From NCBI RefSeq assembly GCF_019469265.1, contig NZ_CP048268.1, positions 899,501 to 963,500 on the forward strand: a DNA stretch of 64,000 bases, given 5' to 3'. The stretch comes from Lactobacillus panisapium. Lineage in GTDB: Bacteria > Bacillota > Bacilli > Lactobacillales > Lactobacillaceae. The stretch's first letter is position 1; every line of letters starts with the position of its first letter. The notes below the pieces were generated by a model, which saw nothing but the letters and a program-made list of their open reading frames with translations, ran no database searches and was not told where the DNA came from. The position numbers and the translations under genes were made by a program. Positions 2 to 36,579 of this stretch are shown here, one piece after another.

Positions 2-3000
2 AAAAAAACTGAAACCCAGGACACTCAATCTGACGCTACAAAAGAAAATGACTCCAAGCTGTCTACTTTTACTGGCTTAACTTCATTTTTTAAAGGTACT
101 GATAAGGTAACTGTGAAAAATGCTGATAATAAGACTGTAACTGAGACTGAGCAGAATAAAGCTAATAGTACTTCTGATGAGCCAACAAGCAGCCAGGATT
201 CTTCTACTGCTGATCATGAAAAAACTGATGAATTAATTACAAGTGACAATCAAAGTCTCGCCTCCTCTAATCAAGAGCAAAAAGTTCAGACTAAGGTTAA
301 TGCATCAACAGCGCAAGTTTATAACTGGGATGATTTTAAAAAAGCATTTCAAGATGTCAATATTTCAGAAATTGATATTATGAAAGATATTGCTAACCCT
401 AATGGTAACGATCAAGAAACAGGTTTTAACATTCCCGGAAGAACACTATTAATTACATCAGGTGGTAATACTAGGCATATTATTGATTTTAAGGGTTCAC
501 ATCCTAATTTAACTGGTAGCGAAAAACTCCAGATAACTTATCGTAACTTAACAGTTTGGTGTTCAGATTGGTACGGTATAATTAGAACCTACGAATACAA
601 TTATGATGCGGCTAAGCAAAATACAGCGATTATTACACTGGATGATATTGATTTCCATGGTTCCCAAATGTTATATGTTGGTAGCCATAACGAAATTCAC
701 TTGAAGAATAACATTACTGCAGAAACAATTAATTATAGTTATACCAGTCCTGTAGATGGCGGCACAGCAGGTGGTAAAGATAATAAACAACAACTATTTG
801 AATTTACTTCTGACTATAATAATATCTATTTCGATAAAGGCTGTACTTTCACAGGTACAACTTATGGCGGTAATGTTATCCAGATGTCACAAGGCAACGG
901 CAATATCCATATTGAACAAGGTGCCACTGTTACATTAAATCCATTAGGTAATGCAGATGGTTCTTTAGGTAACAATCCTGGTGAAACTACTGGTACTACA
1001 TATGGCATTTACCTAGCTGGTTCAGGAAAGATAGACGTTGAAGGTGCTTTAAACATTAACGTCGGCAAGAGCAAATCTAATGCCCCTCAGGCTATTTATA
1101 ATGGAACACGAAATGCTGTGCAAGCAAAGGCTATTGGACTTTATGATGCTAATTCATCGTTTAATATTGGATCCGGCGGCAGTGTTAACATTACTACTAA
1201 CGGTAATATTTCTAATAATACTAATACCAGCTTAATTTTCGACGGCGGTAATTTCATTATTAATCCCAATGGTTCTTTGAAAATAACCGGGGAAGATATG
1301 GGCGACTATAGCGGTACATTAGTTGCAATTGCCAGCAGTGCAGACATTGAAAATGGTACTTTTGAAATTCGCTTGAAAAATGGTGGATCGACTAATGCAG
1401 GTAATGGAGCCATTACACTAATTGATGCGACTGGTAATTTGACAGTTAATAACCCCGAATCCTTAGTTCTAGATGCACATCTTAACAAGAATCCCGCTAC
1501 CAGTCTCATCGGCAATAACCAGGTTACCATTACCAACGTACGGCAAAAGTTAAATCTTTCTAGTATTGTTCCTAGTCTCAAAGATCTAACATTGCCACCA
1601 TATCACCTGTTAAAGGTTAATAAGGACAGTAATGGAAATATCCAAGTTGCTCCAAATGGTATTGAAGTATTAAACGGTCAGCAAGTTTTTGATACAGCTA
1701 CTCTTCAAAAAATCCAGGATGATAAAGACTTAGGCCCTATATTTAAAAATTTACCAGATAATATTCTAAGTGAATTAAAGCAGCTTGCCGGTAGTGGCAG
1801 TGCCACATATGATGATGTCTTTAGTGGAATTATCAATTACGCCTTTAGCGATCCTTCAAACATAGGCTATAACGATATTAGCTTTATTCCAGCCAACCCA
1901 AGTGGCTTTTTGGATATTGATCCTGCTAATGTTAAAGTATCGTATAACGAAGATGGCACTAGCACTATCACTGGAGCAATTTTGAATTATACAGAGGCAA
2001 CAGATGGTGTGAACAGTGACGGCCTATTTAGTAAGATTCTTCCAGGTGGAACCAATGCTTATGTAAGAGCTTATGTCAAAGATTCATCTGGTAAAGAAAC
2101 AGCTATTAAGGCTAACAGCGGAATAGATGATCCTTATAATCAAACAGCAGATTCCGGTAAGACTTTGTCTCATGACTTTACTGCTATGGCTAAGTATAAT
2201 GAACAAACTGGCCGTTACGAATTTAGTTTTAACATTCCAGCTGAAACAACCAAAGCCCTGAAAAAAGGCGATAAAATCGAATTATATCCTAATGCTAATT
2301 TTATCGAATATAATCCACTGGCAACTAAATTGCCTGAATCAGATTCAAACCACAGACCAATTGCTGTTGACGTTTTAGCAGCGGCTCAAGATACAGCAGC
2401 CCAGGAAATCAATGATGAGTTACAAAAGATTAATAATGATCAATCAATAAAACATAATAAAGATTTAGACGATGCTATTGCCAATGCAAAACAGGTTGCT
2501 GCTAAGTCAGATTCAAGCAACTATGATTCTGGCAAATCAGTTTATGGTGCTGATAATATTCCAGAAGTAGAAAAGAGAAAGAAAGATGCTTTAAGTGATT
2601 TACAAACAGCTTATGAGACGGCCCAGAAGGAGTCGCAAGCTTTAAGTGACCAGGTAAAAGCTTCTAAGACAGCGATTACGAATGCTGCAAAAGAAGCTGA
2701 GAATAGAGTACGTAGTACCAGCCTTACTAATGATGAGCAACAAACATATATTGATGCAATTGAAAAGGCCAAGGATGAAGCTTTAGCAACGAAAGATGAC
2801 GCTAATTTCGATCCTGCGAAGTCGATTTATGGCAGTGACAACGTTGATGACGTTAAGAATAAAGAGACTAAAGCTACTAACATTTTTAACAAGGAAGCTG
2901 CCAAAGGTGAACTTGACGGTTTTGCCAAAGACTGTGAAACAACATTAGGCTTAGACTCAACAAATAATAAGGGTGTTGAAGATGCTAAGACAGCTGCAAT

Positions 3001-6000: not shown

Positions 6001-9000
6001 AGAAGCTGAGGAAAACATTGATGTTGCGGCAACAGTAAGCCTTGATACCAATAAGACTGCTGCAAAACAAGCAGTTGAAGATGCAGCAACAAAGGCCAAG
6101 AGTGACATTGATAACAATAAATCTCTTGATGCTGTCAGCAAGAAGAAATATGAAGATAAAATTGAAGCTGCCAAGAAAGCCGCAGAAACAGCTATTGATG
6201 CCGCTACAACCGCAACTGCAATTACTTCTGAACAAACAAGAGGTATTAACGATATTAACAATATCTACCAAGACGCCTCGCTTGCTGCAGAAAAAGCCAG
6301 TGCATTAACTGAATTAACTGCTGCTAAGAATAAAGATCTTGATACTGTAAATGCTGCTCATGATAAGGGTTCAGTTGACGATCCAAATTGGAAAGATGCA
6401 GTAAATGATATAAATAGTATTTATGATGCTGCCGTTAAGAAAATTACGAACGATGATGATGTTACTACAGTCGGTACGGATAAAAATGACGCTATCAGTG
6501 CCATGGATAAGATTGCAAATGGCATTGATGGCGATCAGGATGCACAAGATTTAAGATCTGCGAAAAATAAGGCGATTAATGAATTAGCGGGATTAGCTGA
6601 TCAAGTTAAGAATGAGATTACCAATGATAAGAACTTAACCCAACTTGAAAAAGATGGCTATACAGATCGAGTTGATCAAGCTTTAGCTAATGCTAAGAAT
6701 GAGATCAACGCTGCTACAAATATAGATGAAGTTACAAAGAATGAGGCTGCGGGTAAAGAAGACATAACCAAAGTTGAAAATGATGCATCACTTCAATCTG
6801 CTAAAGATCTAGGCTTAAATAACATCCAACAAGCTAAGAAGGACGCTCTTGACCAAGTTAAGAAATTAACTAATGTTGATGAAGATACCAAGAATCAGCT
6901 AAATAGTGAAATAAATGATGCTTATGATGCCGCTAAAGACAAGATTGAAAGTCCTGATCCAGCAACAGCAGACCAAGTTAATAAGAACGCTCAAGAAGGC
7001 GTGACAAACATCAACAACGTGGTTAGTGATCTTAATGTTGCCAAAGCAGCAAACAAACGGAAACTTGCCAAATATGCCGAAAAGGCAATCGATCGCATTG
7101 ATGCCAATACGGATTTAACGGCTGATGATAAGACAAAAATAGAACAAGCAATTAACGATGCTCGCGATAAGGGCATAACTGATATTGATGCAGCTACAAC
7201 TTCTGCAAACGTTGAGACAGCAGAAAAAGCTGCTGAGAATGCAATTGATGTTGCGGCAACAGTAAACCTTGATACTAATAAGAATTCAGCCAAGAGTGCT
7301 TTGGATACTACAGCTGCAAATGCTAAGACTGATCTTAAGAATATTTATGATAAGTTAACTACTGACTATCAAAAGTTAACTGATGATCAAAAAGCAACAG
7401 CAAAAGCTGATTATGATAAAGCAACCCAAGCTTATGAGGATGCTACTAAGGATGGTGGTACAATCGATCAGGCTTGTGCTGCTGCAAAAGCAAAAGTTGA
7501 TTCAGCTAAAAATAAAGATGAATTAAACAAGGTAATAACTGATGGAAACTCCAGCATTTTAAATGAAGAGTCAACAGCTTCCTTGGCAATAATTAAGGCT
7601 CAAGCTAAGCAAGACATTCAAAAAGCGGTGGATGAAGCTAAAGCTGAACTTAAGGACAAGAATAATGAAATTAATCTAAGTGATCAGAGTGCCTTAGACG
7701 AAGTTCAAAAACTTGGTAATTCAGATATTGATGCAGAAACTAATGCAGAAACCGTTTCAACAATCAGAGATAATACGATTAAGGGCATTAATAACATTGT
7801 CACTAATGCTAAGGCAACAAATGCAGATCAAATTAGAAAAGATCGCGACGATGCCATCAAAGAACTTGATAAGGTCCTTAAAGGTGATAAAGATGCTGGC
7901 ATTTCTGGAGTACTAGACAAGATTGATGCTCTTGAAGATGATACTGGTAAAACCGGCTTAACAGCTGATGAAATAACTAAGTTTAAAGAACAAGCTCAAA
8001 AAGCTCATGATGAAGCCGTAGCAGCAATTAGTGGCGCTACTGATGATCAAATCAATGATTTGAAACAAAAGGGAATTGATGCAATAAATCAAGCTTTAAT
8101 TGATGCACAAATCCAGGCGGCTAAGCGTAAGGGCAATAGTGATCTAGATACTGCTGCCAAAGAAGCTAAAGACAAGATCGCACAATCTAATAATCTTACA
8201 GACACTGAAAAAGCTGAAGCCAACCAAGCAATCGATGATGCTACAACTACAGCTAAAAAAGATGTTGATGCAGCTACTAGTGTGGACGAAGTTAATAAGG
8301 CTGTTTCTGACGGTAAGGATGCAATCAATGATGCTGTTACAAAGGCAAATAGCGCCAAGGACTTGACTTCTAAAAAGAAAGATGCCAAAGATGCTATTGA
8401 TGCTGAAGCGGCAGTAATTAAAAAGAGAATTAATAGTGATGCCAACTTATCTAGGTCAGAAAGACTTAGCCAATCTGCAAATGTTGATCTTGAAGCAGGC
8501 AAAGCCAAAAATGCAATTGATCGTGCTGATAACGTTGCAGATGTAATTAAGCAACGTGATACTGGTGTAAATGCAATTGATGCGCAATACGTATCTGGTA
8601 AGCCACTTGCTGATCAAAAGACTGATGCTATTAAAGAAATCACTAGTGTTGCCACTGAAGCTGCAAATAAGGTTGACAAAGATGACTCGAAGTCAGCTAA
8701 CGAGAAAGATAAAGAAAAGAAAGCGATTGCTGATGCTGCAGCAGAAGCAAAAGATGCAATTAATAGAGCAAAAGGAGCTGAAGGTGTTAATAAAGCCAAG
8801 GTAGATGGTATTGCAAAAATTGAAGCTGCACAAAAACCAGTCATTACTCTTGCTGATCAAAAGAAAACAGCAAAAGATGCAATTGATGATGCTGCTAATA
8901 AGGCCAAGAATAAGATTTCTCAAGATCCAGGATTAACTAATGATGAAAAAGCTACTGCTAATAAAGAGATTGATAGTCTAGCAGATGATGCTAAAAATAA

Positions 9001-12000
9001 TATTGATCAAGCAACAAATATTGATGAAGTTGAAAAAGCAGAGGCTGAAGGAACTGCGAATATAACCCAGGTACAGAGTAAAGTTAATATTCAGAAGAAA
9101 AAGGATCGCGCCAAGAAGATTATTAATGATGAAGGTATTGACGCTAAGAAAGATATTGATCGTGCTTCTGTAAGTGATAGTGAAAAGCAAGCCGCAAAAG
9201 CTAAAGTTGATCAAGCAGTTAAAGATGAACAGGCTAAAGTTGACAAAGCTAATGATGGAGACGAGATCTTAGATATAATTGATGAGTCCCAAGAAATCAT
9301 TCATTCATTTGTTCCTGAAACAAGTGGCTCCGGCAGCAATGGTTCTGACTCAAACGGTTCAGGCTCGAATGGTTCAGGCAGCAACGGTTCTGGTTCAAAC
9401 GGTTCAGGCAGCAACGGTTCTGGTTCAAACGGTTCAGGCAGCAATGGCTCCGGATCAAACGGTTCTGACTCAAATGGTTCAGGCAGCAACGGTTCTGGTT
9501 CAAACGGTTCTGACTCAAATGGTTCAGGATCAAATGGTTCAGGATCAAATGGCTCCGGCAGCAATGGTTCAGATTCCAATGGCTCCGGCTCTAACGGTTC
9601 CGACTCCAATGGTTCCGGCTCAAACGGTTCAGGATCAAACGGTTCAGGATCAAATGGTTCAGGCAGCAACGGCTCTGGCTCAAATGGTTCAGGCAGTAAC
9701 GGCTCAGGTTCAAATGGTTCAGGCAGCAATGGTTCCGGCTCTAACGGTTCAGGCTCAAATGGCTCCGGCTCTAACGGTTCAGGATCAAATGGCTCAGGCT
9801 CTAATGGTTCAGGCAGCAATGGTTCTGGCTCAAATGGTTCCGGCAGCAACGGTTCTGGCTCAAATGGTTCCGGCTCAAATGGTTCCGGCAGCAACGGTTC
9901 TGGCTCAAATGGCTCAGGATCCAATGGTTCCGGCAGTAACGGCTCTGGATCAAATGGTTCCGGCAGCAATGGCTCAGGCAGCAATGGTTCAGGCAGCAAC
10001 GGCTCGGGCTCAAATGGCTCAGGCAGCAATGGTTCCGGCAGCAACGGCTCCGGCTCAAATGGTTCCGGTTCAAATGGTTCAGACTCCAACGGTTCAGGCA
10101 GCAATGGTTCCGGTTCAAACGGTTCCGGTAGCAACGGCTCCGGTTCAAACGGTTCTGGCAGCAATGGTTCTGGCTCAAATGGCTCAGGCAGCAATGGTTC
10201 CGGCAGCAACGGCTCGGGCTCAAATGGTTCCGGCTCAAATGGCTCAGGCTCTAATGGTTCAGGCAGCAATGGTTCAGGCAGCAATGGCTCTGGATCAAAT
10301 GGTTCAGGCAGCAATGGCTCTGGATCAAATGGTTCAGGCAGCAACGGCTCAGGTTCAAATGGTTCCGGCTCAAACGGCTCAGGCAGCAATGGTTCTGGCA
10401 GCAACGGCTCTGGATCAAATGGCTCCGGCTCGAACGGCTCTGGTTCAAATGGTTCTGGCTCCAACGGTTCCGGCTCCAACGGTTCTGGCTCTAATGGCTC
10501 CGGCAGCAACGGTTCAGGCTCCAATGGCTCCGGCAGCAACGGTTCCGGCTCGAACGGCTCCGGCAGCAATGGTTCTGACTCCAATGGCTCAGGCTCCAAC
10601 GGTTCTGGTTCAAATGGCTCAGGCTCCAACGGTTCAGGCTCAAATGGTTCAGACTCCAACGGTTCCGGCAGCAATGGCTCAGGATCAAATGGATCAGACT
10701 CCAACGGTTCCGGCAGCAATGGTTCCGGTTCAAATGGTTCAGACTCCAACGGCTCCGGCTCAAATGGTTCAGGCAGCAACGGCTCCGGCTCCAATGGTTC
10801 TGGCTCGAATGGCTCCGGATCAAACGGCTCCGGTTCAAATGGTTCAGGTTCAAACGGCTCAGGCAGCAACGGCTCCGGTAGCAATGGCTCTGGTAGCAAT
10901 GGCTCAGGCTCCAATGGTTCTGGATCAAACGGCTCCGGCAGCAACGGCTCCGGCTCCAATGGCTCCGGCAGCAACGGTTCCGGCTCGAACGGCTCCGGCT
11001 CGAACGGCTCAGGCTCCAATGGTTCCGGCTCGAACGGCTCAGGCAGCAATGGTTCCGGTTCAAACGGCTCCGGCAGCAATGGCTCCGGCAGCAATGGTTC
11101 TGGCAGCAACGGCTCAGGCTCGAATGGCTCTGGATCAAATGGTTCCGGCTCGAACGGCTCAGGTTCTAATGGTTCTGGCTCCAACGGTTCCGGCTCGAAC
11201 GGCTCAGGTTCTAATGGTTCTGGCTCCAACGGTTCCGGCTCGAACGGCTCCGGATCCAACGGTTCTGGCTCGAACGGCTCCGGATCCAACGGTTCTGGCT
11301 CGAATGGCTCAGGCTCCAATGGCTCCGGCAGCAACGGTTCCGGCTCGAACGGCTCCGGCAGCAATGGCTCCGGCTCAAATGGCTCAGGCTCAAACGGCTC
11401 AGGTAGCAACGGCTCCGGATCAAACGGCTCAGGCTCAAATGGTTCTGGATCAAATGGTTCCGGCTCGAACGGCTCAGGTAGCAACGGTTCCGGTTCAAAT
11501 GGCTCAGGCAGCAATGGCTCCGGATCAAATGGCTCCGGCAGCAACGGCTCAGGTAGCAATGGCTCCGGCAGCAATGGTTCTGGCTCTAATGGCTCAGGTT
11601 CTAATGGCTCAGGCTCCAACGGCTCCGGTTCAAATGGTTCAGGTTCAAACGGCTCAGGCAGCAACGGCTCCGGTAGCAATGGCTCCGGTAGCAATGGCTC
11701 AGGCTCCAACGGCTCAGGCAGCAACGGCTCCGGTAGCAATGGCTCAGGCTCCAACAGCTCAGGTTCTAATGGTTCAGGTTCAAACGGCTCTGGCTCGAAT
11801 GGCTCAGGTAGCAATGGTTCCGGCTCAAACGGCTCAGGCAGCAACGGCTCCGGTAGCAATGGTTCTGGCTCTAACGGTTCCGGCAGCAATGGCTCTGACT
11901 CAAATGGTTCAGGCTCCAACGGTTCTGACTCCAATGGCTCAGGCTCGAATGGTTCAGGCTCAAATGGCTCAGGCAGCAATGGTTCAGGATCAAATGGCTC

Positions 12001-13585: not shown

Positions 13586-13616
13586 TTAGTAATTTTACTT
13601 AGTTAAATAAAAAAAT

Positions 13617-13655
13617 GTCACAAGTTATTTTTGTAATAGCTTGTGGCATTTTTTT
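13617..13655 (+). terminator. Rho-independent terminator of adhesin gene 1
   Basis: A 13-bp stem (13617-13629 with 13635-13647, including two G-T pairs) closes a 5-nt loop and is followed by a run of T, 32 bases after the stop codon. Confidence 0.93.
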
Positions 13656-22900: not shown

Positions 22901-25900
22901 AGTATCAAGAAGCAATTGACAAGCTTCACAAGGAATACGGTACGCAAGCTATCACGAGTGCAACCGATAGTGCTTGGAATACTCATCAACATGTTACTGG
23001 TGATACTCCTGAAGAGATTCAAAAGAGTAAACTCGATGCAGAAAAGGCAATTGCCAAGGGTGCAGTAGATGATGCCGCTGCCAATGCCAAGAACAAGCTT
23101 GATAAAGATGAGACCAAGAAACCGGATGGTTCAAAATACACTGACAAAGAAAAGCAGGATATTAAGGATCAGATTGATAAAAATTCTAAGGATGCTAAAG
23201 ATAAAATAGATCAAACTACAGGTAAGAAAGACGATAAAACCGGTAAAACTGATACTGATGATGCCCGTGATGAAGGAATTACCATTATTGGTGGATCTGA
23301 AGTTGGAATTGATAAGGCTGCTGCGCAAACTAAATTTGATCAAGACACTGCTAAATTGCAAAAACAAATTGACGATGATTTAGCTGCTAAGAAGTTAAGT
23401 CAAGATCAATATGATCAATTAAAGGAACAGATTAGTCAGGTCAAACAAGATGGTACAAAACGGATTAGCGAGTCGACTACTGCTGAAGAATTAACTAAAG
23501 CACAGGAAAACAATCAAGCAGATTTAAGTAATATAAGTTCTGCTATTACTAGAATTGAAGCAATCAATCAAATCAAGCAAAATGCAATTAATGAATTGCA
23601 AGTAAATAAAGCTGCTGCTGATCAAGCTATCGAAAAATCAGGATTGTCTGCTAGCGATCAAGCCAAACAAAAGCAAAAGATTCAAGATATCTTTGACAGC
23701 AGTAAAAGTAAAATCAACAGTATTTCTGATAAAAAGCCGGATGGAACAGATAAGACGATTGATGAGATAACCCAAGAAGCAAAGGCCATTGTTGATGCCG
23801 CTTCTAAGGGCTCTCAAGGATCAAATGGTGAAAAAATACCAGGATTTGATCAAATCAAGAACGATGTTGATCTTGCGGGTGCCAAGACTACTGCTGAAGG
23901 AATCTTGCAGAATAAGCAGGCTCAGGCCAAGCAAATAATTGATCAATCACAGTTGACTCAAGTGCAAAAGACAATTGCTAAAAATTTAGTAGATACTGCC
24001 TGTGAAAATGCTAAAACTGAGATTGAAAAGCAAACAGATATTAGCCAGATACCAACCGATGAAGCACAAATTGGTCGAGAAATTGACGATATTATTAAAA
24101 ATTCTTCTAAGTGGGTCACTATTGATAAAAATAATGCGCTGGTTGGTGACGGTGATGTTGCAGGTCTGCAGACGGGTCTTGACGAATTAGCTGATAGACA
24201 AAAATCGAATCCAGATTATGCTGCTGATATTAAAGATATTACAGATAGCATTGAAGGAATAAAAAATGCTAGTGAAATGGAAAAGGTCACTGCCGCATAC
24301 AATAAGGGTATGACAGCCTTGAACAAGCTTAAGGGTAAGGAAACTGTCCAAGTTGCTTCTGATAAAGCAATCAGCGAACTTATTCAAAATGATGATATTG
24401 ACGAAAACACGAAAAATCAGATGATAGCTGCGATTAAAGACCAAGCCAAAAAAGGTAAGGAAAACATTTCTAACATTTCTAATTCAGCTAGTGATCTAGA
24501 AACGATAAAAGGTCAAATTAGCGATGCTGCTAACAATGCGGTAAATGAAATTCAAAGCATAGTTAACAAAGCTACGAATGAAAGTAGAACTAAAGCTGAT
24601 CAAGAGCTGCAACAAAAGTATCAAGAAGCAATTGATAAACTCCATAAGGAATACGGTGCTCAAGCTATCACGAGTGCAACTGATAGTGCTTGGAATACTC
24701 ATCAACATGTTACTGGTGATACTTTCGATGAGATTAAAAAGAGTAAGCTCGATGCAGAAAAAGCAATTGCCAAGGGTGCAGTAGATGATACCGCTGCCAA
24801 TGCCAAGAACAAGCTTGATAAAGATGAGACCAAGAAACCGGATGGTTCAAAATACACTGACAAAGAAAAGCAGGATATTAAGGATCAGATCGATAAAAAT
24901 TCTAAGGATGCTAAAGATAAAATAGATCAAACTACAGGTAAAAAGGACGATAAAACCGGTAAAACAGATACAGATGATGCTCGTGATGAAGGAACCAAAC
25001 AAATCAAAGATACTCTGGATAATGGTTCATCTAATAATTCTAATTCGGGTGGCTCTGGAAGTTCATCAGACGGTTCTGGTAATTCACAAGTACCTGTAGC
25101 AACTAAGCCAGGAACTGATGGAGATAAGGATGTTGATACCTCTGTAGCCAATGCCGAGGAAGTTACCTTAATGCATAATGCTTATGTTTATGACCTTGAC
25201 GGCAAGCGGTGCAATAAGATTATTCTTGGAGCCGGGTCAATTGTTAAGACTTATGGTATAGAAAATATTAATGGCAATCAGTACTACATTTTGATTGATC
25301 GAGGTGATAATAATAGAAAATACTATTTGGCGATTGGCAATGTTAAGTATTTGGTACAAAAACTAAAGAATGATGCCTCAGTCTATGATAAGTACGGCAA
25401 TAAGATTAAGAATCAGGGCGTTATTAAGAAAGGTGAGACCGTTCATACTTATGGCGATGTAGTCAACATTCGTGGTGAAAAGTACTTTATCATTGGTACA
25501 AACCAATACATTAAGGCAAGCAAGGTTAATATTGAGAAGATTGTTCCTAAGACAGAAAATGCTGAGGTTACGCCAGTAAGCGTTCCTGAAAGCACGAAAG
25601 AAAACGCAACTGTCGAAAAAACAATCATGCATAATGCTTATCTATATGATGAAAAAGGTGTGAGATGCAACAAATTGATTTTTGGAGCCGGTTCGATCAT
25701 TGATACGGTTGGCATTAAGCGCATTAATAATAAGCTCTACTATGGTTTGGCTGATGGAATGTATATAGCTGCTGGCAATATTGATCCGAAGCAATTGAAA
25801 CTAAAGCATAATGCCTTTATTTACGGTCAATATGGTAATCGCATAAGTAAGAGAATTCTACGCAAGCATAAGAAAGTAAGGACATATGGTGCACCAGTAA

Positions 25901-25965: not shown

Positions 25966-25988
25966 AAGCTAAATAGATAAAATAAAAG

Positions 25989-26028
25989 TGGTACAACTTG
26001 TTGAAGATACAGGTTGTACCATTTTTTT
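25989..26028 (+). terminator. Rho-independent terminator of adhesin gene 2
   Basis: A 13-bp stem (25989-26001 with 26009-26021, one G-T pair) has a 7-nt loop and is followed by seven T residues. It lies 23 bases after the stop codon. Confidence 0.93.
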
Positions 26029-26263
26029 ATATTTGATTTAGTTTTGTCTTATATTATATGTATACATAGATACGTATAAACTAGATTTATTAATAAAAAA
26101 ATAGGAAAAATAGGCCTATGATGATAATAATTTTAGCGTTCTAATAATTACTTTTACTATAATCTTTTATAAAATATATTAAAAAAGCTTTAAAATTGAC
26201 TTTAATAATTACAGATATTACGGTATAGATGTATAGGCTATGGTTAATAGAAAGGATATCTGT
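26029..26263 (+). promoter_or_regulatory. Intergenic promoter region and RBS of adhesin gene 3
   Basis: Very AT-rich with no gene. It contains a 12-bp perfect palindrome TATGTATACATA (26057-26068), TATAAT at 26158-26163 without a good -35, and a TTGACT box near 26197 without a good -10 at the right distance. An AAAGGA ribosome binding site (26251-26256) lies 7 nt before the chosen ATG at 26264. The promoter itself is not resolved. Confidence 0.4.
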
Positions 26264-29200
26264 ATGTTAGGTAAAAATAATTTTCAAGAACGATTGAAGC
26301 AAATGGAAATGCAAGATAAGCATGACCAGTATTCAATTCGTAAATTGAGTATTGGTGCAGTTTCTGTTTTATTAGGCTTTTCATTTTTCGGTATAAATGC
26401 TGAATCTGTTAAGGCAAGCGAAATTAGTCCTGAACAACAAACAAGTCAGGTTGCCACTGATTCGACTACCAAAACGGCAAATAATGTAGTAAAAGAAAAT
26501 AATCATACTGACTTAAATGAAGAAAAAAGTAATAAGCCAGATTTGACAACATATTCTGGTTTAAGCTTGTTTTTTAAAGAAAGCAATGTAGATCAATCTT
26601 CAGCTTCTCAAACAAAGCAGGACAGTAAGGTGTCGAAAGTCACCCAAAAAGCTATTAATGATTCATCTGCTCCTAACCATGAAGAGACAGAAAAGAGCAA
26701 TTCTTCTACTGAAGTGGCCGACTCTAAGGAAAATAATGATACAAATGACAATGCTTCTGCTAACTCTGGAACTAGTAATAGTAACCAAAAGCAAGATAAG
26801 CAAAATAAAGACGACCAAACTAATAATGATTTAGAGCAAAATAAGCTGCCAGATGATTCTTCCAATAAGCAACCGACTAAGCCGGCCAAACAACAACCTA
26901 AAGCTAACCAAAATCTAGGCTTGGTGGATATAATAGGTGATACACCGCAAGTAGAAGGCAATGTTGCTAAGGTATATAATTGGCGTCAATTTGTTAATGC
27001 CTATCAGCAAAAAAAGATTCCTGCTAATACGACAATTAACGAAATCGATATTATGAATGATATTTCAGCTGACCAAGATAATGGCACTACCGGTTTTGAT
27101 TTTACAGGAAGAAAATTGCTGATTAAATCGTCTGGTTTGGGTAGACACAAAATTGATTTTAAAGGCAACCATCCTAACTTAACTTCTGCTAATTCTCTAG
27201 ACTTGACCTATGAAAATTTAGAGTTATACAGTGCTGATTTCTTTGGTGTTATTGATACGGCTAATGTTGGTAATCAAAAAGAAGCAGTAATTACATTTAA
27301 AAACGTTCTTTTCCATGGTTCACAGATGGTTTATTCAAGTTCTAGAACGCACATCCATTTTGTTGGTGACCAAAACGTGGCGGAAACAATTCATTGCCCA
27401 TATCCTGGTACTACTGCTTCCAATGGAGATAACCAGCAATTATTTGAGTTTACCAAATCTGATAACACAATTGATTTTGACGAAGGTAACTTTATCGGCA
27501 AAACAATTGCGGGTAACATCATTCAGATGGATGGTAGCAATAATACCGTCAACGTAGCTAAGGGTGCAACAGTCACCTTAGATCCTCGTGGTAACGCCGA
27601 TGGTATTAATGCGACTAAAGCTAATCCAGCAGAAGGTACTGGAACTGTTTTTGCAATCGTAATGCGAGGCGATAAAGAAACGGTTAATGTTCAAGGCGAT
27701 TTGAATATTAATATTGGTTCAGGTATCTTTTCAGATTACGATTACAAACAGGCTTCTGCCATTTATATTAATAAAACCACTAAGGGTAACACTTCCGCCT
27801 TTAATATTCTAAATGGCGGAAATGTCAAAATTAATACTAATGGTGATATTGCTGCTTTTAATAAGAGAAGAAATTTATTGTATGATGGTGGCGACATTAA
27901 TATTCGACCAAGAGGTTCTTTAACCATCATTGGCCAGAACATGGGCATATATAACGATACTTTGGTTCTGATTGAAGGAACTGCTACTGTTCAAAATGGT
28001 AGTTTTGAAGCTCGACTAGAAGGAGTAGATACTGGTAGAAACGCTATTATCTTGGTGGATACTGGCCAGGGTGGTTCAATTATTGTTAATAACCCTCGTT
28101 CCTTAATATTGGATGCACATTTAAATAAGAATCCAGGAACCAGCATTATCGGGAACAATAAGATTTCAATTACTAACGTCCGCCAGGCACTTGATCTAGG
28201 TGACTTACTCAATGGGATTGGTCTTACGGGATCAATTGCGCTTCCGCCATACCATGTTTTGCAGGTTCAAAAGGGTAGTGACACACTCAACGTTAATAAA
28301 ATTGAAATGTTAAATGGTAATACCAAGATTACATCTGATTATGTAAAAGAGTTAGAGAAAAAACCTGTTGTTTCAGCTATTTTAAACCAGATACCGTTCT
28401 TAAAGACAATTTTAGAAGATGCAGGTAAACAAAATTCAACTTTTGATACAGTCTTTGCTCAGGTAATTTCTAAGATTTTTGCCAATAGCTTACTTCCCGG
28501 ATATAACAACGCTCGCTTTATTCCAGCTAATACAAGTGGTTTTTTGGACATAGATCCAACTAAAGTTAGTGTTGTCACCAATGAAGATGGCTCAAGAGAA
28601 GTCGTTGGTGCTCCTGGATCTGTGCTAAATTATCAAGAAAGCAAGGATGGACCCGAAAGTGATGGCTTATTCAATAAGATTCTTCCGGGCGGAACTGATG
28701 CCTATATTTTAGCTAGCCTAAAGAGTCCTAGTGGCAAAATAACTAGCTGGTTCCCGAAAAACGAACAAAATGGCAATATGATTGAGAGCCCATATGGTAA
28801 AACCGCAGATTCCGATGGAAGTCTTAAACAAAAGCAATTTGCTGCCAAAGTCAACAATGACGGTTCCTTTAGGTTAGTTTTACCGACATCAACTACAGCT
28901 AATCTTGATGAAAAAACCCAAATTTTATTGACACCGCATGCTAACTTCGTTGAATATGATCCGCTCGCTCTTGATGAAGGATCACGGCCAGTTGCAATTG
29001 ACTTGAAAATTGCTTCATTAGCTAATGCGCAAAAAGAAGCGGCACAAGCAATCAAAGCAGCAATTACCCAAGCCAAAAATAATTTACCGGCAAGCCTAAC
29101 TCCAGAGCAGGCCGCTGCTTTCAACCAAGCAATGGCCCAGGCAGATGCTTACACGAAACAACCAACCGAAAAGGGTTATGATGAAAATACTTCTGTATAT

Positions 29201-32200
29201 GGGGCAAAAGATCATTTGTCCGTAAGTAGTAGGCAAAAGAAAGCGCTAGCAATAATTCAAGCGGCAATTGATACGGCTAATGCTCATGATAATTTACAAA
29301 CCCAAAAGTCTAAGGCAATTGACGAATTACAATCATTAGCTAATGATCAGTCGGCTGCTTATCCATCAATTAAAGACAAAATTAACCAAGCGTTGGTAAC
29401 TGCTACAAACAATATTAAGTCATCTACTACCACTGCAGATAATTTAGCTGACATTTTGGCTAGTGAAAAAGAGAATATTAACGGAGTTGTAAAATCTTAT
29501 AAGAATAATTTTAAACAAGAACTGAGTGAGTCGTTAAGCAGTGTTAAAGAAGATTTAAAAGCTGCAGGGGGAGATAATAATTTAACTGAAACGCAGCAAA
29601 CTGCAATTAATGGATTGATTGATGGCCAAGAAATTACTGCGGTCAAGGATGCTATCAAACGAGACGGTGCCATTGATCTAGCTCAAAATGAAGACCAAGT
29701 TAAGACCGCAGATGAACAAGCCAAAGGTAATTTAAAATTAATTCAAGATAAAATTGCGGCTATAAAATTAGTTGAGCAAGAAGCCAATAAGCAAATTGAG
29801 CAGCACAGCCAAGATGCTAGTGAGATTAAGGACGCTTTGAATCAAGCTGTTAGTGCAATTCTTGCTGGTAGTGATCACGATGGTTCTGCAGGAAGGGATG
29901 CTATTGCCAATGTCCATAATGAAAAGACACTTGCCGCTGCTAAAATCGAAATAGCTAATGCTGCCAGTGCTGCTAAACTGAAATTGCAAAACAGTGGCTT
30001 AAACGTTGATGAACAGCAGAAGTACCTAAATGCAATTGATCAAGCTGTTTTAGTTGTGACTGCTCAAAAAGATTCTCCTTCTTTTGATGAAAATAAATCA
30101 ATTTATGGTAGTAACAATGATCAAGAGATAGCAAATAAAGTTATGCAGGCCAAGAATCTCTTTGAAAAGGAAGTTGCTAAAGCTGAACTTGCCGCTTATG
30201 TTAATGAGATTGAGCAGGCATTAGAAACAACTACTGCTGAAAATGACAAAATTAGCACCGAGCAAAAAAATGGTACTGCCAATATAGAATCAGTAAGCGA
30301 CAAGAATGAGGATGGTTCTATTGCTGATATTGCCGAAAAAGTTTCTGCAGCCAAAGCAACTGCAAAAGAAAATATTTTAAATGAAGTTAAAATTCTCGCA
30401 AAAAAGAGACTTGAGGACAAACGTGATACTGTCTTAGATAATATTAGAAATATTTCTGGTTTAACAAGTGAGAATATTGCTAATAACGAAAAAGAAGCTA
30501 ATAACTTATTAACTTCACAAGACAAAACTGGCTATAGCGATTTAATTGACACTAGTCAAGACTTTAGTGAAATAAAGACGCATATTAGTGAAGGAATTAA
30601 AGCATTAGCAGATTTGCAAGCAGCTGCTAATGAAACTGCTCAGCGCAATAATGCCATCAGTAACGCCAATAATGCAATCGTTGCTAAGCAAAATGAAGTC
30701 AATAAAAAGATTGACGAGTTAGATGTTTTAAATGATCAAGAAAAGCAGAGCTTTAAAGATCAAATTGCTGCTGCAATTGTTAGTTACAATAATGCGGTAG
30801 AAAAAACGCCAACTTCTGCTATCAGTAAGTTAGCAGATGCACTGGTTTCACAAATCGATAACATTCTTCAGGATGCAACTGGAAAAGTTTCTACCGAATT
30901 TAAGGCACAAAAAGAAGCTGCATTATCTAGTATTAGTAAGCAGGCACAAGATGCACGTGATCAAATTAGTAAAATTAGTGATGAGCAATTAAGTTCCACT
31001 AATAAAGAATATTATAATGACCTAATTAATCAAGCTGAACAGTTGGCAACAACCCAGATTAAGGCCGCACAAAATACTACAGATTTAAATGCGGCTGCAA
31101 ATCAAGGAAAAGTTGATATTCAGGATGCTCTTACTAAGGCGTTAGTTGAGGCTGCAAGATCAGCAGCAATCAATGATTTGTTAACTGCCAAAAAGAAAAA
31201 TGTTGCAGTAATTGAGCAAGCTTCAACTGATCATAAGATAAGTAAGGAAAGTGCACAAAAATACATTGATTCAATTACGGGCTATTATGATAAGGCTGTT
31301 GGTCTAGTTAAAAATGATACCAGTATTGTTGACATCAATTCAGACAGTACGCTGGGTATTAGTAGCATGAACAATGTTGCTAATAGTATTGCCGATGATG
31401 AAGAAGTTCAGCAACTAGCAAAGCATAAGCAAGATGCTTTGGCTGAACTTGACCGGTTGGCTAATTCTACATTAGCCGAAATTAAGGCTAATGCCTCACT
31501 GTCTGGCGTAGAAAAAGATCAGTATGAAAGCCAAATTACAGATGCACTTTCTCAAGCTAAAATAGCAATTGAGGCAGAGACTGCTATTGATGGAATTGAT
31601 CGCCAAAAAGATGTTGCTAAGGCAAAATTAGCTAATATTGGTACGACAGCAGCATTCCAAGGAGCTAAAGAGGAAGCTTGGAACAAGTTAAATACTGCTA
31701 AGAGCATTGTGACTGATCAAATTAATAAGCTTGATAGCATTGATCTTCCAACTAAGAATAAGTTTTTGAAAGAGGTTCAAGATAGCTATGATAAGTCATA
31801 TGCTGCAATAAAGGACCCTAATCCGGAAACGATTGAGCAAATTAAACAAAGTGCCGATGATGGGGTAACAGAGCTTAAAAACATTGTTAGTGATGTCAAT
31901 GTTGCTATTGCCATCAGTCAGCAGAACTTAAATAATCACGTTGCCAAGGTAATTCAGGAAATTAATAATTCTAGCGCTCTAACAGATGATGCTAAGAAAG
32001 AAACAATTGCAAAGATTGAAGATGCTTCGGCAACTGCAATCCAAAATATCGGAAAGGCTACTTCCGAACAAGATGCCAAAAAGGCGGAAACTGACGGAGA
32101 AAATGTAATTGATAAAATTGCTGCAGAAAGTTTAGACCTTGCAGGCTCAAAAGAACAGGCGAAAGCTTCAATCGCAACAGCGGCTAATAGTGCTAAGAGC

Positions 32201-35200
32201 GATCTAAAAACTCAATATGATCAGTTTATTAAAGACTATAATGATTTTATTCAAAATAATCCTAATTTGACTACTGCTGAAAAAGCAGCAATTAAAGAAG
32301 ATTATGATAATGCAAGTAGTGCTTACGAAAAAGCGACAAATAGCGGACAGTTAATCGATACAGCATTAACAACTGCTACGACAAAAATTGATAAAGCTAA
32401 GAATAAGTCTGAAGTAAGCGATGCATTAGTTGATGGCAACCATCAAATTACAACTATTGAACAAGAAGCATCACTAGCAATCAATAAAGCACAGGCAAAA
32501 CTTAATATCAGAAAGGCCAGCGCTGATGCCCATACTAAATTAACTGATGAAAAAGATATAACTGCTTTAAACGATGTGGTTAACCAAGGTTTGGCTAACA
32601 TTGATGCTGAAACTGATGCTGGACTTGTTGCTAAAGATGAAAAAAATGCGCTTAATGGCATTAACAACGTTATTTCGATTGCTAATTCTGAAAATACTAA
32701 GAAACAGCGAGAAGCTGCTTTAAATGAATTGGCTGCTATTTTAAATGGTGATCCTGAAACTGGCACGGAAGGAATTCTTAAGCAAATTGCTGATCTTTTA
32801 GATGAGAATGGAAAACAGGGATTGACTCCTGAACAAGTAGCTGCTTTCCAGCAAAAAGCACAAAATGCTTATGATACTGCAAAAGGTATTATTAGTGGTG
32901 CTGATGCAAAAGATATTGCCGGTTTAAAGGCAGAAGCAATCGCAAATATTAATCAAGCATTGATAGATGCTAAGTTGCAAGTTGCTAAAAATAAGGCAAT
33001 AAATGAGCTCAATAACATTGCCGATCAGGCGCGCGATGATGCTCCCAAGGAGAAGGATGCAATTGAGCAGAGCCTAAAAGATGCAATAGCAACTATCAAT
33101 CAAGCCACTGATGTCAATTCAGTTGATGCTGCTAAGTCAGCTGGTGAAAAGGCGCTTAACGGTATTGTAGCCCAAGCCAAAGATTCGGCACTGAAAAATG
33201 AAAAAGTGGCAGCTAGGGATGACCTGACTAAACAGGCCGGTAAACTCAAAGATCAAATTAGTCAATCGTGGCAAAATCATTTGATTGATCAAACACAATA
33301 TGATCGCTTAACCAATCAAGTTAACGAAGCACTTACAGCTATCAATTTGGCTCTTGATGGTGCAGGCAGTATTGATGAAGTAAGACTTGCTAAAGGAAAT
33401 GGGCAGACAAGTTTGGATCAGATTAAGACAGATCTTGATCAATCTGAAGCGTTAAACAAGGCCCTGAGTGATTTGGATAAGGCAAGTCAGAATGCATATC
33501 AAATCGTTGATCAGGTGGCAGCTCAAATTGGTAAGACCCCTGAAGAAATAAGTCAAATAGCTAATACAATGAAGGGTCTGATTGACAAGGAGCACGATAA
33601 GGCAGTTAACGATGTGAAGACGGCTCAAACCGGCGTAAAGCCAATTTCAACCATGAAGCAAATTGTTAAAGATGCCCAAGATGCTGTTACCAATTTGACT
33701 GATGGCTTCCAGCAGAAAAATGAGTTGATTGGCGAGTTAAATAAACATGCGGATGAAATTAAAGCAGCGCTGTCTGATCCGAGTTCCAAACTTGATCCAC
33801 TTCAAATTACAGCTGGTGAAAATAAGATTGATCAGGCACTGCAAAATGGTATTTCTGCTATTCTAAAAGCAGATAAGACTGCTGATTTGCAATCATTAAA
33901 AGATAATGCAATTACAGCAATCGATAATGCTAAATTACCAAGTGATCTTTTGACTGAGAAGAACACTGCGATTGCAGCGATTAATGATTATGCCGTTCAA
34001 GCTAAGAAGACCATCGATCAAAATCAAAAATCTGATGAAAATCCGAATGGTTTGGCAAAAGAATTGATTGATTCGCTAAAAGATCAGGTTGAACAGGCTA
34101 GAAAGAAGACCATTGATCAGATTAATAACGTTAACTTAACTGCTTTAACTCCAGACAGTTTGAATGACGCCAAAGCTAATATTAGTGCAGCTTTAAACGG
34201 TAGTGTACCTGAAGGACAAGTTCCTGATTTTGGTAAAAAGGGAATTGACGTTATTGTTAATTTGACGAAACAAAAAGCAGGAGTTGTACAGGCAAAGCAA
34301 GAAGCAATTGCCAAGCTAGAAAATGAAAGAGCTGCTGCTTTAACTGCTATTATTAATTCTAATCTGTTGCCAGATGAGCAAATACCATTTAAGAATAAAT
34401 TGCAACAATTATATGACAGCAGTAAGCAAGCTATTAATGATCTTACCGATTCAGATGAACAGGAAGTTAAGAAGAAGGCAGATGACATAATTGCTAATGC
34501 TGGTTTTGCCGATTTAATATCGCAGGCAAAACAGCAAGGCAATAAGTCAACTGCTCTGCGTGACCTTGTTTCTAAAAAGGCCAAAGCATCTAAAATTATT
34601 AATGCTTCTCAACTATCGCCGGATGATAAAAAAGATGCATTAGCAGAAATTGACCAACTATTTACTGCTGCTAGTGATAAGGTTAATGAAGGTAAAGACA
34701 TACCAGAAGATGTTGGTAAGGAAATTGATGAATTATGGCAAAGTGGTCATAAGCCAAATGACTGGTTTGCCAAAGCAAAAGAAAATGCTCTGAGTGGATC
34801 AGATCAGATTGGCGGCTTGCAAACCGAATTTAATAAATTGACTGATGATCAGCGTAATAATGAAGCTTATAAACAATATCTTGCGGATATCAATGACGGT
34901 ATTAGTGCATTTGGTCAAGCTAATACGATGGAAAACATCAATGACGCTTACGACAAAGGAATGACTGCAATTAACAAGCTTAATGCGCAGGAAGAGATTT
35001 CACGGAATCTTGAACGTGCTAAAAATGAAATTAACTCTCATCAAAGCTTGAGTCAGCAGGATAAAGATAAATTAATTGAGAAAGTAAAGGATCATGCAAA
35101 AAGCAGCCGGAATGAGATTGATAACATTGTGGCTCCAGTTGGCGATACTACAGGTAAAGCTGAGCAGATTAAATCTGCAATTGATAATTTTAAAGCCAAC

Positions 35201-36559
35201 ATTGAAAGTTATATCAATCAAGCTAAGACTCTCGCCAAAAACAATGCTGACCAAGAAATCAAGGAGACGTATCAACATGCATTAGAGCAACTGAATGAAA
35301 AGTTTGGTTCACACTCAGTTACTGCAGCTACTGCTAAAGCATATAACGATCATGAACATGTAACAGGTGACACACCTGAAGCAATTGAGGCTGATAAGCT
35401 AACTGCAATTAAGGAAATAGCTAATGCAGCAATTACGGACGCAATCAGTAGTGCACAAAAAGTTGTGGCTGAACTCAAGCATAAGGACGGATCTGATTAT
35501 TCGGCTGCTGACAAGGCAATTCTTACTAAGGAAATTGCTAAGCAAGGAAAAACTTTAACTGATAATCTTGCTTCGATATCCGATCCTGAGCAAATTAAAG
35601 CACTAATTACGCAAGCAGTTAGTCATTTATCCTTAATTAGTTCTGACCCTAAGACTATTTCTGAGATTTTGCAAAACAATTATCCAAAAGATAGCAATAT
35701 TAGTAATCCTGTTGTTAACCCAATAACTAATTCGGATAATAATAATCCTGAGAATAAGACAGAAGAAGTAATGTTAATGCACAATGCATACTTGTATAAT
35801 GCTAATGGTCAGCGTGATAATCAAATTATTTTAGGTGCTGGCTCAATCGTTACCAGTCATGGCATTACCCGAATTAATGGTCGCGATTTCTACATTTTGG
35901 TAGATCAAGGTGCAAAACAGAAGAAGTATTACTTAGCTGTTGGTAATGTGCAATCTACTAGCCGGATTTTACGTCATAATGCATTTGTCTACAATAAGCA
36001 TGGCAAACGAATTATGAGTGCAGGTATCCGTTATAAGGGCAAGCAAATTAAAACTTACGGCTCTCAAGTTACAATTAAAGGCAAGAAATACTATATTATT
36101 GCCCATAACCGCTATGTCAAAGCAGCAAATGTTGGCAGTAAGCTTATTCAAAATGCTCAAACGGCTAATGTTGCCGCATCCAGCGCTTTAACTAGCCAAA
36201 ATATCATTGAAAAAAGAGTTATGCATAATTCATATCTGTATGATCAAAGTGGTATTCGAGCTAACAGATTAATTGTTTTGGCAGGCTCAAAGCTTAATTT
36301 TGAAAAACAAACGACTATCAATGGTCGTCCATTCTATCGTTTGAGTGATGGCTTGTATATTGCTGCCAACAATATTGATGGTCAAAGTGTTGCGTTAAAG
36401 CACAATGCATATATTTATAATCAACACGGAGAGCGTCAAACTAGAAGAATGCTAAGAAAGAGTCAGCAGATAAGAGTTTATGGTGATCCAATCAAGATTA
36501 ATGGTCACAAATATTATATTTGCGATATCAATAAATTCGTGAAAGCTGCTAACTTCTAG
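26264..36559 (+). CDS. Giant YSIRK/SLAP surface adhesin 3
   Basis: This is a 3,431-residue protein. The ATG at 26264 is chosen over the in-frame ATG at 26240 because AAAGGA lies 7 nt upstream and the protein then begins MLGKNN, exactly like gene 2. YSIRKLSIGAVSVLLGF forms the signal peptide, with probable cleavage after SVKA. Next are the polar linker with TTYSGLSLFFK, a pectate-lyase-like adhesive region (about 26970-28270), the FIPANTSGFLDIDP module (from 28517), roughly 2,200 residues of DUF1542-like helical repeats (about 29010-35680) with EHVTGDTPE near 35350, and four SLAP-like modules (about 35770-36559). It has no Gly/Ser/Asn stalk and no LPXTG. It ends at a bidirectional terminator shared with rarA. 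Role inferred as surface adhesin, ligand unknown. Confidence 0.93.
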   Translation: MLGKNNFQERLKQMEMQDKHDQYSIRKLSIGAVSVLLGFSFFGINAESVKASEISPEQQTSQVATDSTTKTANNVVKENNHTDLNEEKSNKPDLTTYSGLSLFFKESNVDQSSASQTKQDSKVSKVTQKAINDSSAPNHEETEKSNSSTEVADSKENNDTNDNASANSGTSNSNQKQDKQNKDDQTNNDLEQNKLPDDSSNKQPTKPAKQQPKANQNLGLVDIIGDTPQVEGNVAKVYNWRQFVNAYQQKKIPANTTINEIDIMNDISADQDNGTTGFDFTGRKLLIKSSGLGRHKIDFKGNHPNLTSANSLDLTYENLELYSADFFGVIDTANVGNQKEAVITFKNVLFHGSQMVYSSSRTHIHFVGDQNVAETIHCPYPGTTASNGDNQQLFEFTKSDNTIDFDEGNFIGKTIAGNIIQMDGSNNTVNVAKGATVTLDPRGNADGINATKANPAEGTGTVFAIVMRGDKETVNVQGDLNINIGSGIFSDYDYKQASAIYINKTTKGNTSAFNILNGGNVKINTNGDIAAFNKRRNLLYDGGDINIRPRGSLTIIGQNMGIYNDTLVLIEGTATVQNGSFEARLEGVDTGRNAIILVDTGQGGSIIVNNPRSLILDAHLNKNPGTSIIGNNKISITNVRQALDLGDLLNGIGLTGSIALPPYHVLQVQKGSDTLNVNKIEMLNGNTKITSDYVKELEKKPVVSAILNQIPFLKTILEDAGKQNSTFDTVFAQVISKIFANSLLPGYNNARFIPANTSGFLDIDPTKVSVVTNEDGSREVVGAPGSVLNYQESKDGPESDGLFNKILPGGTDAYILASLKSPSGKITSWFPKNEQNGNMIESPYGKTADSDGSLKQKQFAAKVNNDGSFRLVLPTSTTANLDEKTQILLTPHANFVEYDPLALDEGSRPVAIDLKIASLANAQKEAAQAIKAAITQAKNNLPASLTPEQAAAFNQAMAQADAYTKQPTEKGYDENTSVYGAKDHLSVSSRQKKALAIIQAAIDTANAHDNLQTQKSKAIDELQSLANDQSAAYPSIKDKINQALVTATNNIKSSTTTADNLADILASEKENINGVVKSYKNNFKQELSESLSSVKEDLKAAGGDNNLTETQQTAINGLIDGQEITAVKDAIKRDGAIDLAQNEDQVKTADEQAKGNLKLIQDKIAAIKLVEQEANKQIEQHSQDASEIKDALNQAVSAILAGSDHDGSAGRDAIANVHNEKTLAAAKIEIANAASAAKLKLQNSGLNVDEQQKYLNAIDQAVLVVTAQKDSPSFDENKSIYGSNNDQEIANKVMQAKNLFEKEVAKAELAAYVNEIEQALETTTAENDKISTEQKNGTANIESVSDKNEDGSIADIAEKVSAAKATAKENILNEVKILAKKRLEDKRDTVLDNIRNISGLTSENIANNEKEANNLLTSQDKTGYSDLIDTSQDFSEIKTHISEGIKALADLQAAANETAQRNNAISNANNAIVAKQNEVNKKIDELDVLNDQEKQSFKDQIAAAIVSYNNAVEKTPTSAISKLADALVSQIDNILQDATGKVSTEFKAQKEAALSSISKQAQDARDQISKISDEQLSSTNKEYYNDLINQAEQLATTQIKAAQNTTDLNAAANQGKVDIQDALTKALVEAARSAAINDLLTAKKKNVAVIEQASTDHKISKESAQKYIDSITGYYDKAVGLVKNDTSIVDINSDSTLGISSMNNVANSIADDEEVQQLAKHKQDALAELDRLANSTLAEIKANASLSGVEKDQYESQITDALSQAKIAIEAETAIDGIDRQKDVAKAKLANIGTTAAFQGAKEEAWNKLNTAKSIVTDQINKLDSIDLPTKNKFLKEVQDSYDKSYAAIKDPNPETIEQIKQSADDGVTELKNIVSDVNVAIAISQQNLNNHVAKVIQEINNSSALTDDAKKETIAKIEDASATAIQNIGKATSEQDAKKAETDGENVIDKIAAESLDLAGSKEQAKASIATAANSAKSDLKTQYDQFIKDYNDFIQNNPNLTTAEKAAIKEDYDNASSAYEKATNSGQLIDTALTTATTKIDKAKNKSEVSDALVDGNHQITTIEQEASLAINKAQAKLNIRKASADAHTKLTDEKDITALNDVVNQGLANIDAETDAGLVAKDEKNALNGINNVISIANSENTKKQREAALNELAAILNGDPETGTEGILKQIADLLDENGKQGLTPEQVAAFQQKAQNAYDTAKGIISGADAKDIAGLKAEAIANINQALIDAKLQVAKNKAINELNNIADQARDDAPKEKDAIEQSLKDAIATINQATDVNSVDAAKSAGEKALNGIVAQAKDSALKNEKVAARDDLTKQAGKLKDQISQSWQNHLIDQTQYDRLTNQVNEALTAINLALDGAGSIDEVRLAKGNGQTSLDQIKTDLDQSEALNKALSDLDKASQNAYQIVDQVAAQIGKTPEEISQIANTMKGLIDKEHDKAVNDVKTAQTGVKPISTMKQIVKDAQDAVTNLTDGFQQKNELIGELNKHADEIKAALSDPSSKLDPLQITAGENKIDQALQNGISAILKADKTADLQSLKDNAITAIDNAKLPSDLLTEKNTAIAAINDYAVQAKKTIDQNQKSDENPNGLAKELIDSLKDQVEQARKKTIDQINNVNLTALTPDSLNDAKANISAALNGSVPEGQVPDFGKKGIDVIVNLTKQKAGVVQAKQEAIAKLENERAAALTAIINSNLLPDEQIPFKNKLQQLYDSSKQAINDLTDSDEQEVKKKADDIIANAGFADLISQAKQQGNKSTALRDLVSKKAKASKIINASQLSPDDKKDALAEIDQLFTAASDKVNEGKDIPEDVGKEIDELWQSGHKPNDWFAKAKENALSGSDQIGGLQTEFNKLTDDQRNNEAYKQYLADINDGISAFGQANTMENINDAYDKGMTAINKLNAQEEISRNLERAKNEINSHQSLSQQDKDKLIEKVKDHAKSSRNEIDNIVAPVGDTTGKAEQIKSAIDNFKANIESYINQAKTLAKNNADQEIKETYQHALEQLNEKFGSHSVTAATAKAYNDHEHVTGDTPEAIEADKLTAIKEIANAAITDAISSAQKVVAELKHKDGSDYSAADKAILTKEIAKQGKTLTDNLASISDPEQIKALITQAVSHLSLISSDPKTISEILQNNYPKDSNISNPVVNPITNSDNNNPENKTEEVMLMHNAYLYNANGQRDNQIILGAGSIVTSHGITRINGRDFYILVDQGAKQKKYYLAVGNVQSTSRILRHNAFVYNKHGKRIMSAGIRYKGKQIKTYGSQVTIKGKKYYIIAHNRYVKAANVGSKLIQNAQTANVAASSALTSQNIIEKRVMHNSYLYDQSGIRANRLIVLAGSKLNFEKQTTINGRPFYRLSDGLYIAANNIDGQSVALKHNAYIYNQHGERQTRRMLRKSQQIRVYGDPIKINGHKYYICDINKFVKAANF

Positions 36560-36579
36560 TTTTAAATAAGCGATAAAAA

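Follow-up and report, generated by a model that had tools for sequence, protein, structure and literature searches.

Tandem giant SLAP-anchored surface proteins of Lactobacillus panisapium: a modular family at the usp–rarA site that includes a stalk chimera

The three tandem giant genes A1, A2 and A3 of Lactobacillus panisapium are likely to mark one of two chromosomal sites at which adhesive fibres, anchored non-covalently to the cell wall, evolve as modules with exchange of stalk cassettes. They lie in the window, that is, the whole 64 000-nucleotide stretch of DNA analysed here (G000:C1:899501-963500), in the gene order atpC-mreB-rodA-usp-A1-A2-A3-rarA-hyp-rpsD-ezrA. The proteins share one architecture of head, stalk and anchor, and A1 is a chimera: its head, proximal stalk and anchor are of the A type, while its distal stalk and SGSNG array match the giants B1 and B2 of the second site.

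The original prediction had placed three same-strand giants in the window, the last ending at 36559, and the open reading frames bear out both coordinates and lengths (Table 1). The A1 frame is open over 4527 codons; the complete protein of 4604 residues begins at an ATG at L006:9771, 230 bases beyond the window edge and preceded by AGGAAAGGATG. The A3 frame spans 26240–36559, and the ATG preceded by AGAAAGGAT gives 3431 codons. The location of A1–A3 on a single 2.19 Mb contig and the absence of internal stops argue against an artefact. A2 is identical to P0007, labelled Lactobacillus panisapium, at 3818 of 3995 aligned positions (96%), and A3 finds a 98% full-length match in P0005. The species is said to have been described from Apis cerana bee bread (PMC5882092). 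Together, A1–A3, B1 and B2 occupy 65.2 of 2188 kb, about 3% of the genome.

Table 1. Features of the A locus, in window positions.
Feature	Position	Strand	Basis or remark
Giant gene A1	2..13585	+	Open reading frame listing; 5' end outside window
A1 motif LSTFTGLTSFFK in the linker from signal to head	59..94	+	
A1 head region, PF20585 in first part	317..2371	+	Pfam
A1 stalk, three tandem units of ~410 residues	3950..7711	+	86% and 62% identity to first unit
A1 distal stalk, grouping with B-locus giants	8147..9313	+	Windowed matches, tree, AU tests
A1 SGSNG array, 1105 residues	9323..12637	+	
A1 anchor, four SlpA motifs	12782..13582	+	Pfam
Terminator-like hairpin 3' of A1	13608..13656	+	Fold versus shuffles
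Giant gene A2	13978..25965	+	3995 aa
A2 head, modelled beta-solenoid, SRRP-like fold	14731..16767	+	Pfam and model
A2 stalk piece, helices throughout in model	16975..18327	+	Structure model
A2 anchor, four SlpA motifs	25162..25962	+	Pfam
Terminator-like hairpin 3' of A2	25984..26026	+	Pattern scan and fold
Giant gene A3	26264..36559	+	3431 aa
A3 head region, PF20585 in first part	26972..29002	+	Pfam
A3 anchor, four SlpA motifs	35768..36556	+	Matches solved SlpA/SlpX wall domains
Bidirectional terminator-like hairpin, A3/rarA interval	36579..36619	.	Fold versus shuffles
rarA, right border gene of island	36645..37991	-	

The common plan proposed for the three proteins was recovered by Pfam, with a head, DUF1542 and a SLAP anchor in each. 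The PF20585 head is missed when whole proteins are scanned and is detected in A1, A2 and A3 once their N-terminal parts are given separately; DUF1542 is present as 13 stretches in A1 and three each in A2 and A3, and PF03217 as four stretches apiece. A YSIRK signal is called by Pfam/NCBIfam in A2 and A3 and is recognized by eye in A1, where it falls outside the window. The three heads are 41–50% identical. The sharp differences in stalk composition that had been claimed hold for A1, with its 1105-residue SGSNG array, but not for A2 compared with A3, which are alike in composition. The lengths make fibres of different reach plausible. Scaled from the 0.2 um estimated for Giant3 of A. kunkeei, which has 51 repeats of 103 residues (PMC12863079), the helical stalks would extend for roughly 85–105 nm.

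Each gene is followed by a hairpin that folds far better than shuffled sequences (z of -10.5, -7.0 and -9.8 after A1, A2 and A3, respectively), and the third is T-rich-tailed on both strands, in agreement with the predicted terminators, although the stems comprise 22, 18 and 19 pairs including A/T runs and not the proposed 13. A pattern scan returned no terminator after A1, though folding gives one. Promoter-like matches show no excess over shuffles upstream of either A2 (7 versus 5.4) or A3 (4 versus 5.1), so that the idea of independently expressed genes is half supported: what points to separate expression is the hairpins and the gaps of 392 and 274 bases.

The A2 head was modelled as a beta-solenoid (pLDDT 90.1 and pTM 0.90 from a 20-row alignment), for which the sole PDB matches at E<=0.001 were four chains of L. 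reuteri SRRP binding regions, at 15–16% identity; sequence searches of the PDB with head and stalk profiles gave no match. A 451-residue piece of the A2 stalk is all helix in its model (pLDDT 93.5, pTM 0.64, 12 rows). At the other end of the fibre, the A3 anchor has matches among solved structures, the wall domains of SlpA/SlpX (E 4e-19 to 7e-10), in which teichoic acid is bound by paired motifs (PMC11181022). The phosphate-binding pattern of SlpA, YxYx4KxxN (PMC11181022), is strictly matched in one of the four motifs of A1 and of A2, in two of those of B1 and of B2 and in none of those of A3, which makes teichoic-acid binding by A3 less sure.

In the mechanism that we propose, the giants would be exported through the YSIRK signal and the general Sec pathway (a single SecA was found), and the four C-terminal SlpA motifs, arranged as two tandem two-motif domains, would hold the fibre on wall teichoic acid. 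The DUF1542-type helical rod would carry the solenoid tip outward, and the tip, with its SRRP-binding-region fold, may bind a glycan; our guess is a host glycan or the pectin of pollen. Pectin suggests itself because polygalacturonic acid and rhamnogalacturonan I are ligands, at acid pH, of the L. reuteri binding region SRRP53608-BR (PMC6973325). Between rod and anchor of A1, the SGSNG leash could serve as a flexible hinge. Head and anchor would stay together over time, with the distal stalk swapped as a cassette and repeats gained or lost. A different reading, which we hold to be unlikely, takes the giants as armour or spacers of an S-layer-type coat and the solenoid tip as having lost its binding. 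The 60 SlpA-motif matches across many proteins of the host genome suggest that such a coat is rich, and rods and disordered arrays require no ligand; against this, the tip appears in the model to retain an SRRP-like fold, the L. reuteri region has the ligands just mentioned, and the differences between A1 and its two orthologues are concentrated in the tip. Within the first 1000 residues, A1 departs most from these orthologues, P0071 and P0072, at window positions 371–820 (residues ~201–350), where identity drops to 56–68% in three 25-residue windows.

In 200-residue windows, the matches of A1 are A-type up to about residue 2800, and its anchor is A-type again beyond the array; the last two stalk windows are 60% and 53% identical to B2 and 39% and 50% identical to B1, as against 24–26% for A2 and A3. 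The trees of distal stalk and SLAP anchor were calculated from 42 chosen rows, 34 A-type and 8 B-type, among which two have fewer than half of their columns filled and one A-type row covers part of a split L. helsingborgensis gene. In the distal-stalk tree, for which the program warned of long branches and of uneven composition, A1, P0071 and P0072 group with B2 (99/94) and then with B1 (98/93) inside the B clade (100/99), and P0069, which is A1-like in head and anchor, groups with A2 (100/99). In the SLAP tree A1 joins P0069 (100/100), with the B locus apart. AU tests reject the A1 distal stalk being forced together with P0069 (p 4.8e-6) or with A2, A3 and their kin (p 2.4e-48). The odd stalk of A1 did not come about through in-place divergence alone, the distal part being that of the second giant family.

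Two other sources of this similarity were weighed. Stalk compositions are all biased and similar, so that low-complexity helical repeats rich in A, K and D might have converged; this is extremely improbable in view of the low identity reached by the like-composed A2 and A3 in the same windows and of the long starred branch in the distal-stalk tree. An assembly join of two repeat-rich loci would find its raw material in the SGSNG arrays present at both sites, 0.66 Mb apart, and in the exact repeats of up to 311 bp in the B2 array. We regard it as highly improbable, since P0071 and P0072, from other assemblies, keep the module order of A1, and the longest exact stretch found in common between the A1 and B2 arrays is 45 bp (in steps of 5). 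Nor is the distal stalk a copy of the B locus, as it is only 53–60% identical to B2. Exchange of a stalk cassette, the reading that we prefer, may have run in either direction: the AU tests reject neither B1 and B2 grouping without A1 (p 0.166) nor all B-locus rows doing so (p 0.096). Transfer from B to A would be favoured by the short G/S/N-rich pre-anchor arrays in four of the six KxYKxGKxW giants of L. xylocopicola and by the lack of an array in P0069 and P0086, the A1-type relatives.

The history of the three heads is likewise more involved than had been supposed. It had been proposed that the genes arose by duplication followed by stalk diversification, and tandem, modular, SLAP-anchored paralogues are indeed what is found; simple local duplication is contradicted by the tree tests and by the B-type distal stalk of A1. 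The head tree contains 37 giants of no fewer than 1400 aa that have MLGKNN by residue 60, to the exclusion of B-type heads, 1.5-kb-codon fifth giants and broken genes; 13 rows have the head start defaulted to residue 200, and the L. laiwuensis 20068 row starts inside the head. With this model and these 37 heads, a clade of A1, A2 and A3 is rejected (p-AU 0.0003), and the A2 head has giant 3 from other species as its neighbour (94/89, unstarred). In most stalk windows, A2 shows 45–61% identity with the second and third giants of other bee lactobacilli and 26–38% with A1 or A3. Recent tandem duplication within the lineage, with the stalks then diverging in place, would account for the tandem order, the related heads and the common plan, and a sisterhood of A2 and A3 alone is not rejected (p 0.087); on balance, we consider it improbable.

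B1 (4134 aa) and B2 (5553 aa) are encoded on the - strand at G000:C1:1593661-1623653 (L007, L008), approximately 0.66 Mb from the A locus. Both have a PF20585 match, four SlpA motifs and stalk repeats of 81 residues, and blastp finds no match between B and A heads at E 1e-3. The KxYKxGKxW signal barely passes in B2 (18.3, with a cut-off of 18) and is not called in B1, whose start is similar by eye. B-type heads occur in five of the 75 genus genomes. L. xylocopicola (G074; L186-L189, L197) carries six clustered giants with KxYKxGKxW-like starts (2097–5036 aa), of which four match the B head, and Fructobacillus tropaeoli has a relative (40% over 99% of the head). A1 has its distal stalk and SGSNG leash in common with the KxYKxGKxW giants of this second locus.

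A further element joins the two signal types. A 12-residue pattern resembling LSTYxGLxSFLK sits in the disordered and otherwise variable linker between signal and head (59-94 in A1, 14230-14265 in A2 and 26543-26578 in A3). Of the 50 giants whose starts are intact, 41 have it, YSIRK and KxYKxGKxW types alike, and the nine that lack it are mostly B-type. It occurs in none of 2500 shuffled linkers and nowhere in the remaining 168,233 residues of those proteins, to which the pattern was fitted. The counts are descriptive, as many rows are close relatives. It is conceivable, if rather doubtful, that the two unlinked loci, despite distinct export signals, make up a single system of exchange, in which heads and anchors are locus-specific, SGSNG leashes and the stalk cassettes near the wall pass from one locus to the other, with lengths varying by strain, and the linker motif acts as a shared signal for export or fibre assembly. 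Were this so, the lineage would retune the reach and flexibility of its fibres with the binding target unchanged.

Length differences between the compared sequences are seen in the repeats. The A1 array comprises 215 S-(G/D)-S-N-G units in the examined stretch, in 84 different 15-base versions, compared with 121 units in P0071 and 117 in P0072; pairwise identity is 90% over the first two codon positions and 44% over the third, a pattern that agrees with selection on the peptide. The longest exact repeat within the A1 array is 68 bp, which together with the variety of unit versions also speaks against an artefact. The ~410-residue stalk unit is present three times in A1 and twice in P0071, and relatives of B1 have 3638, 3654 and 3955 aa. 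The A2 head is 99–100% identical in P0007 and P0008, and one distal window falls to 67% in P0007. Repeats may have collapsed in some of the compared sequences, P0069, P0071 and P0072 among them. A probe for SGSNG arrays finds them in three of the 75 genus genomes, namely the window genome, W8174 and L. melliventris; the arrays of the last two are part of proteins of ~900–1250 aa with another N-terminus, most with a tail that looks sortase-like by eye. Clusters of surface proteins of ~900–1450 aa are also seen at L190 (G065) and L191 (G025); SGSNG arrays, or related ones rich in G/S, occur in some of these proteins, as do tails that look sortase-like by eye. A reverse-strand open frame of 1107 aa covers the A1 array (window 9301-12624, -), as similar frames cover that of B2, and is probably a by-product of the repeat codons.

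The site itself was surveyed in 75 genus genomes, in which rarA was matched in 71, rodA in 73 and both on one contig in 60. Among these 60, the rodA-rarA gap measures 1.1–1.3 kb in 37, 2.4–2.8 kb in six, 6.3–8.0 kb in three and 11.7–53.5 kb in 14, and A-type giants are found in 12 of the 17 genomes with a gap of at least 6 kb. Their number per site is three in the window genome, one in L. apis, four in L. helsingborgensis (one split), five in W8174 and in L. kullabergensis, one in G048, one in G050 (6899 aa), two in G051 and one in ESL0701; head positions give two in ESL0679 and four in G066, and the single giant of ESL0246 (G041, L193) is broken into two frames, of 166 and 1381 aa. The expected synteny upstream of rarA is upheld: usp and rarA bound the island at a constant position, and bee-associated species have one to five giants there. 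A-type heads also occur in G007, G019, G028, G031 and G063, where rodA and rarA are on different contigs. Further genomes, L. melliventris (G065) and L. xylocopicola (G074) among them, have their giants elsewhere and a short site. Across 397 family genomes, head-profile matches were obtained in 21, mostly weak, nine of the 21 being within the genus. In G009, G010, G018, G027 and G067 (L198-L202), with gaps of at least 6 kb, unrelated genes lie between rodA and usp, several with zinc-ribbon-like starts by eye.

The giant family as found here was already known from the Firm-5 bee lactobacilli, in which tandem YSIRK/DUF1542/SLAP genes of 1500 to 4600 aa are reported in variable number at two distant locations (Ellegaard 2015, PMC4449606). 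These resemble A1–A3 in signal, DUF1542 stalk, SLAP anchor, tandem arrangement and paired locations; the Firm-5 species L. kullabergensis and L. helsingborgensis have homologous tandem genes at the usp–rarA site, as here. The report describes two SLAP domains, whereas A1–A3 have four PF03217 stretches each, and neither the B-type distal stalk of A1 with its SGSNG array nor the KxYKxGKxW pair B1/B2 was met in the portions of it consulted (PMC4449606). What is added here is the usp–rarA site, short or filled, the finding that A1–A3 are not one clade and the cross-locus chimera A1. In the parts consulted of the published accounts of Firm-5 and Apilactobacillus giants, no cross-locus chimera, short-or-filled usp–rarA site or linker motif was found, the searches not being aimed at the motif.

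Giant1-5 of Apilactobacillus kunkeei are also encoded by consecutive genes and share a beta-solenoid N-terminal domain, an alpha-helical rod, SH3b-like C-terminal domains and recombination within the cluster (PMC4494060, PMC12863079); the models of the A2 head and stalk piece show such a solenoid and rod. They differ in their DUF5776 anchor, their purB/pyrB and rlmD/rsmG flanks and their genus (PMC4494060, PMC12863079); Pfam scans of A1–A3 return SlpA but not DUF5776. The Apilactobacillus giants are reported to have positional homologues and to recombine, among other places at hotspots in their helical repeats (PMC12863079, PMC4494060); where the tip is similar, the SRRP ligand residues are not conserved (PMC12863079). 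The binding regions of L. reuteri SRRPs (PDB 5nxk, 5ny0; PMC6973325) are like the A2 head in fold only, as beta-solenoid tips, and SRRPs differ in their accessory Sec export and serine-rich stalks. Membership of the SRRP family was rejected: the single SecA match of the genome scores 891 bits, below the SecA2 cut-off of 930, and the best match to the GtfA-type glycosyltransferase TIGR02918 reaches 125.7 bits, with a cut-off of 574.6. SlpA and SlpX (PMC11181022) share the C-terminal SlpA motifs, but as one pair rather than four, and outside these motifs the domain content has nothing in common; the phosphate motif is partly kept in the giants. By description only, the staphylococcal SasC and Embp, from another genus, are likewise large surface proteins, with DUF1542 (SasC) or helical repeats (Embp) (PMC2761602, PMC7587433).

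In four Firm-5 species, transcripts of surface-protein clusters (LRR, LPXT, SLAP), which may or may not include the giants, are raised in pollen-fed bees, and most putative adhesin genes raised in vivo are not raised in pollen culture (PMC8456714). The share of the genome given to five giants is a cost that should pay off in the bee niche. The short rodA-usp-rarA interval of most testable genomes and the one to five giants of bee species make a clean comparison pair. The A1 chimera demonstrates separate histories for stalk and tip, a warning that trees of whole giants mix histories, and the independence of the two modules would allow reach and binding to be tested separately through stalk exchange.
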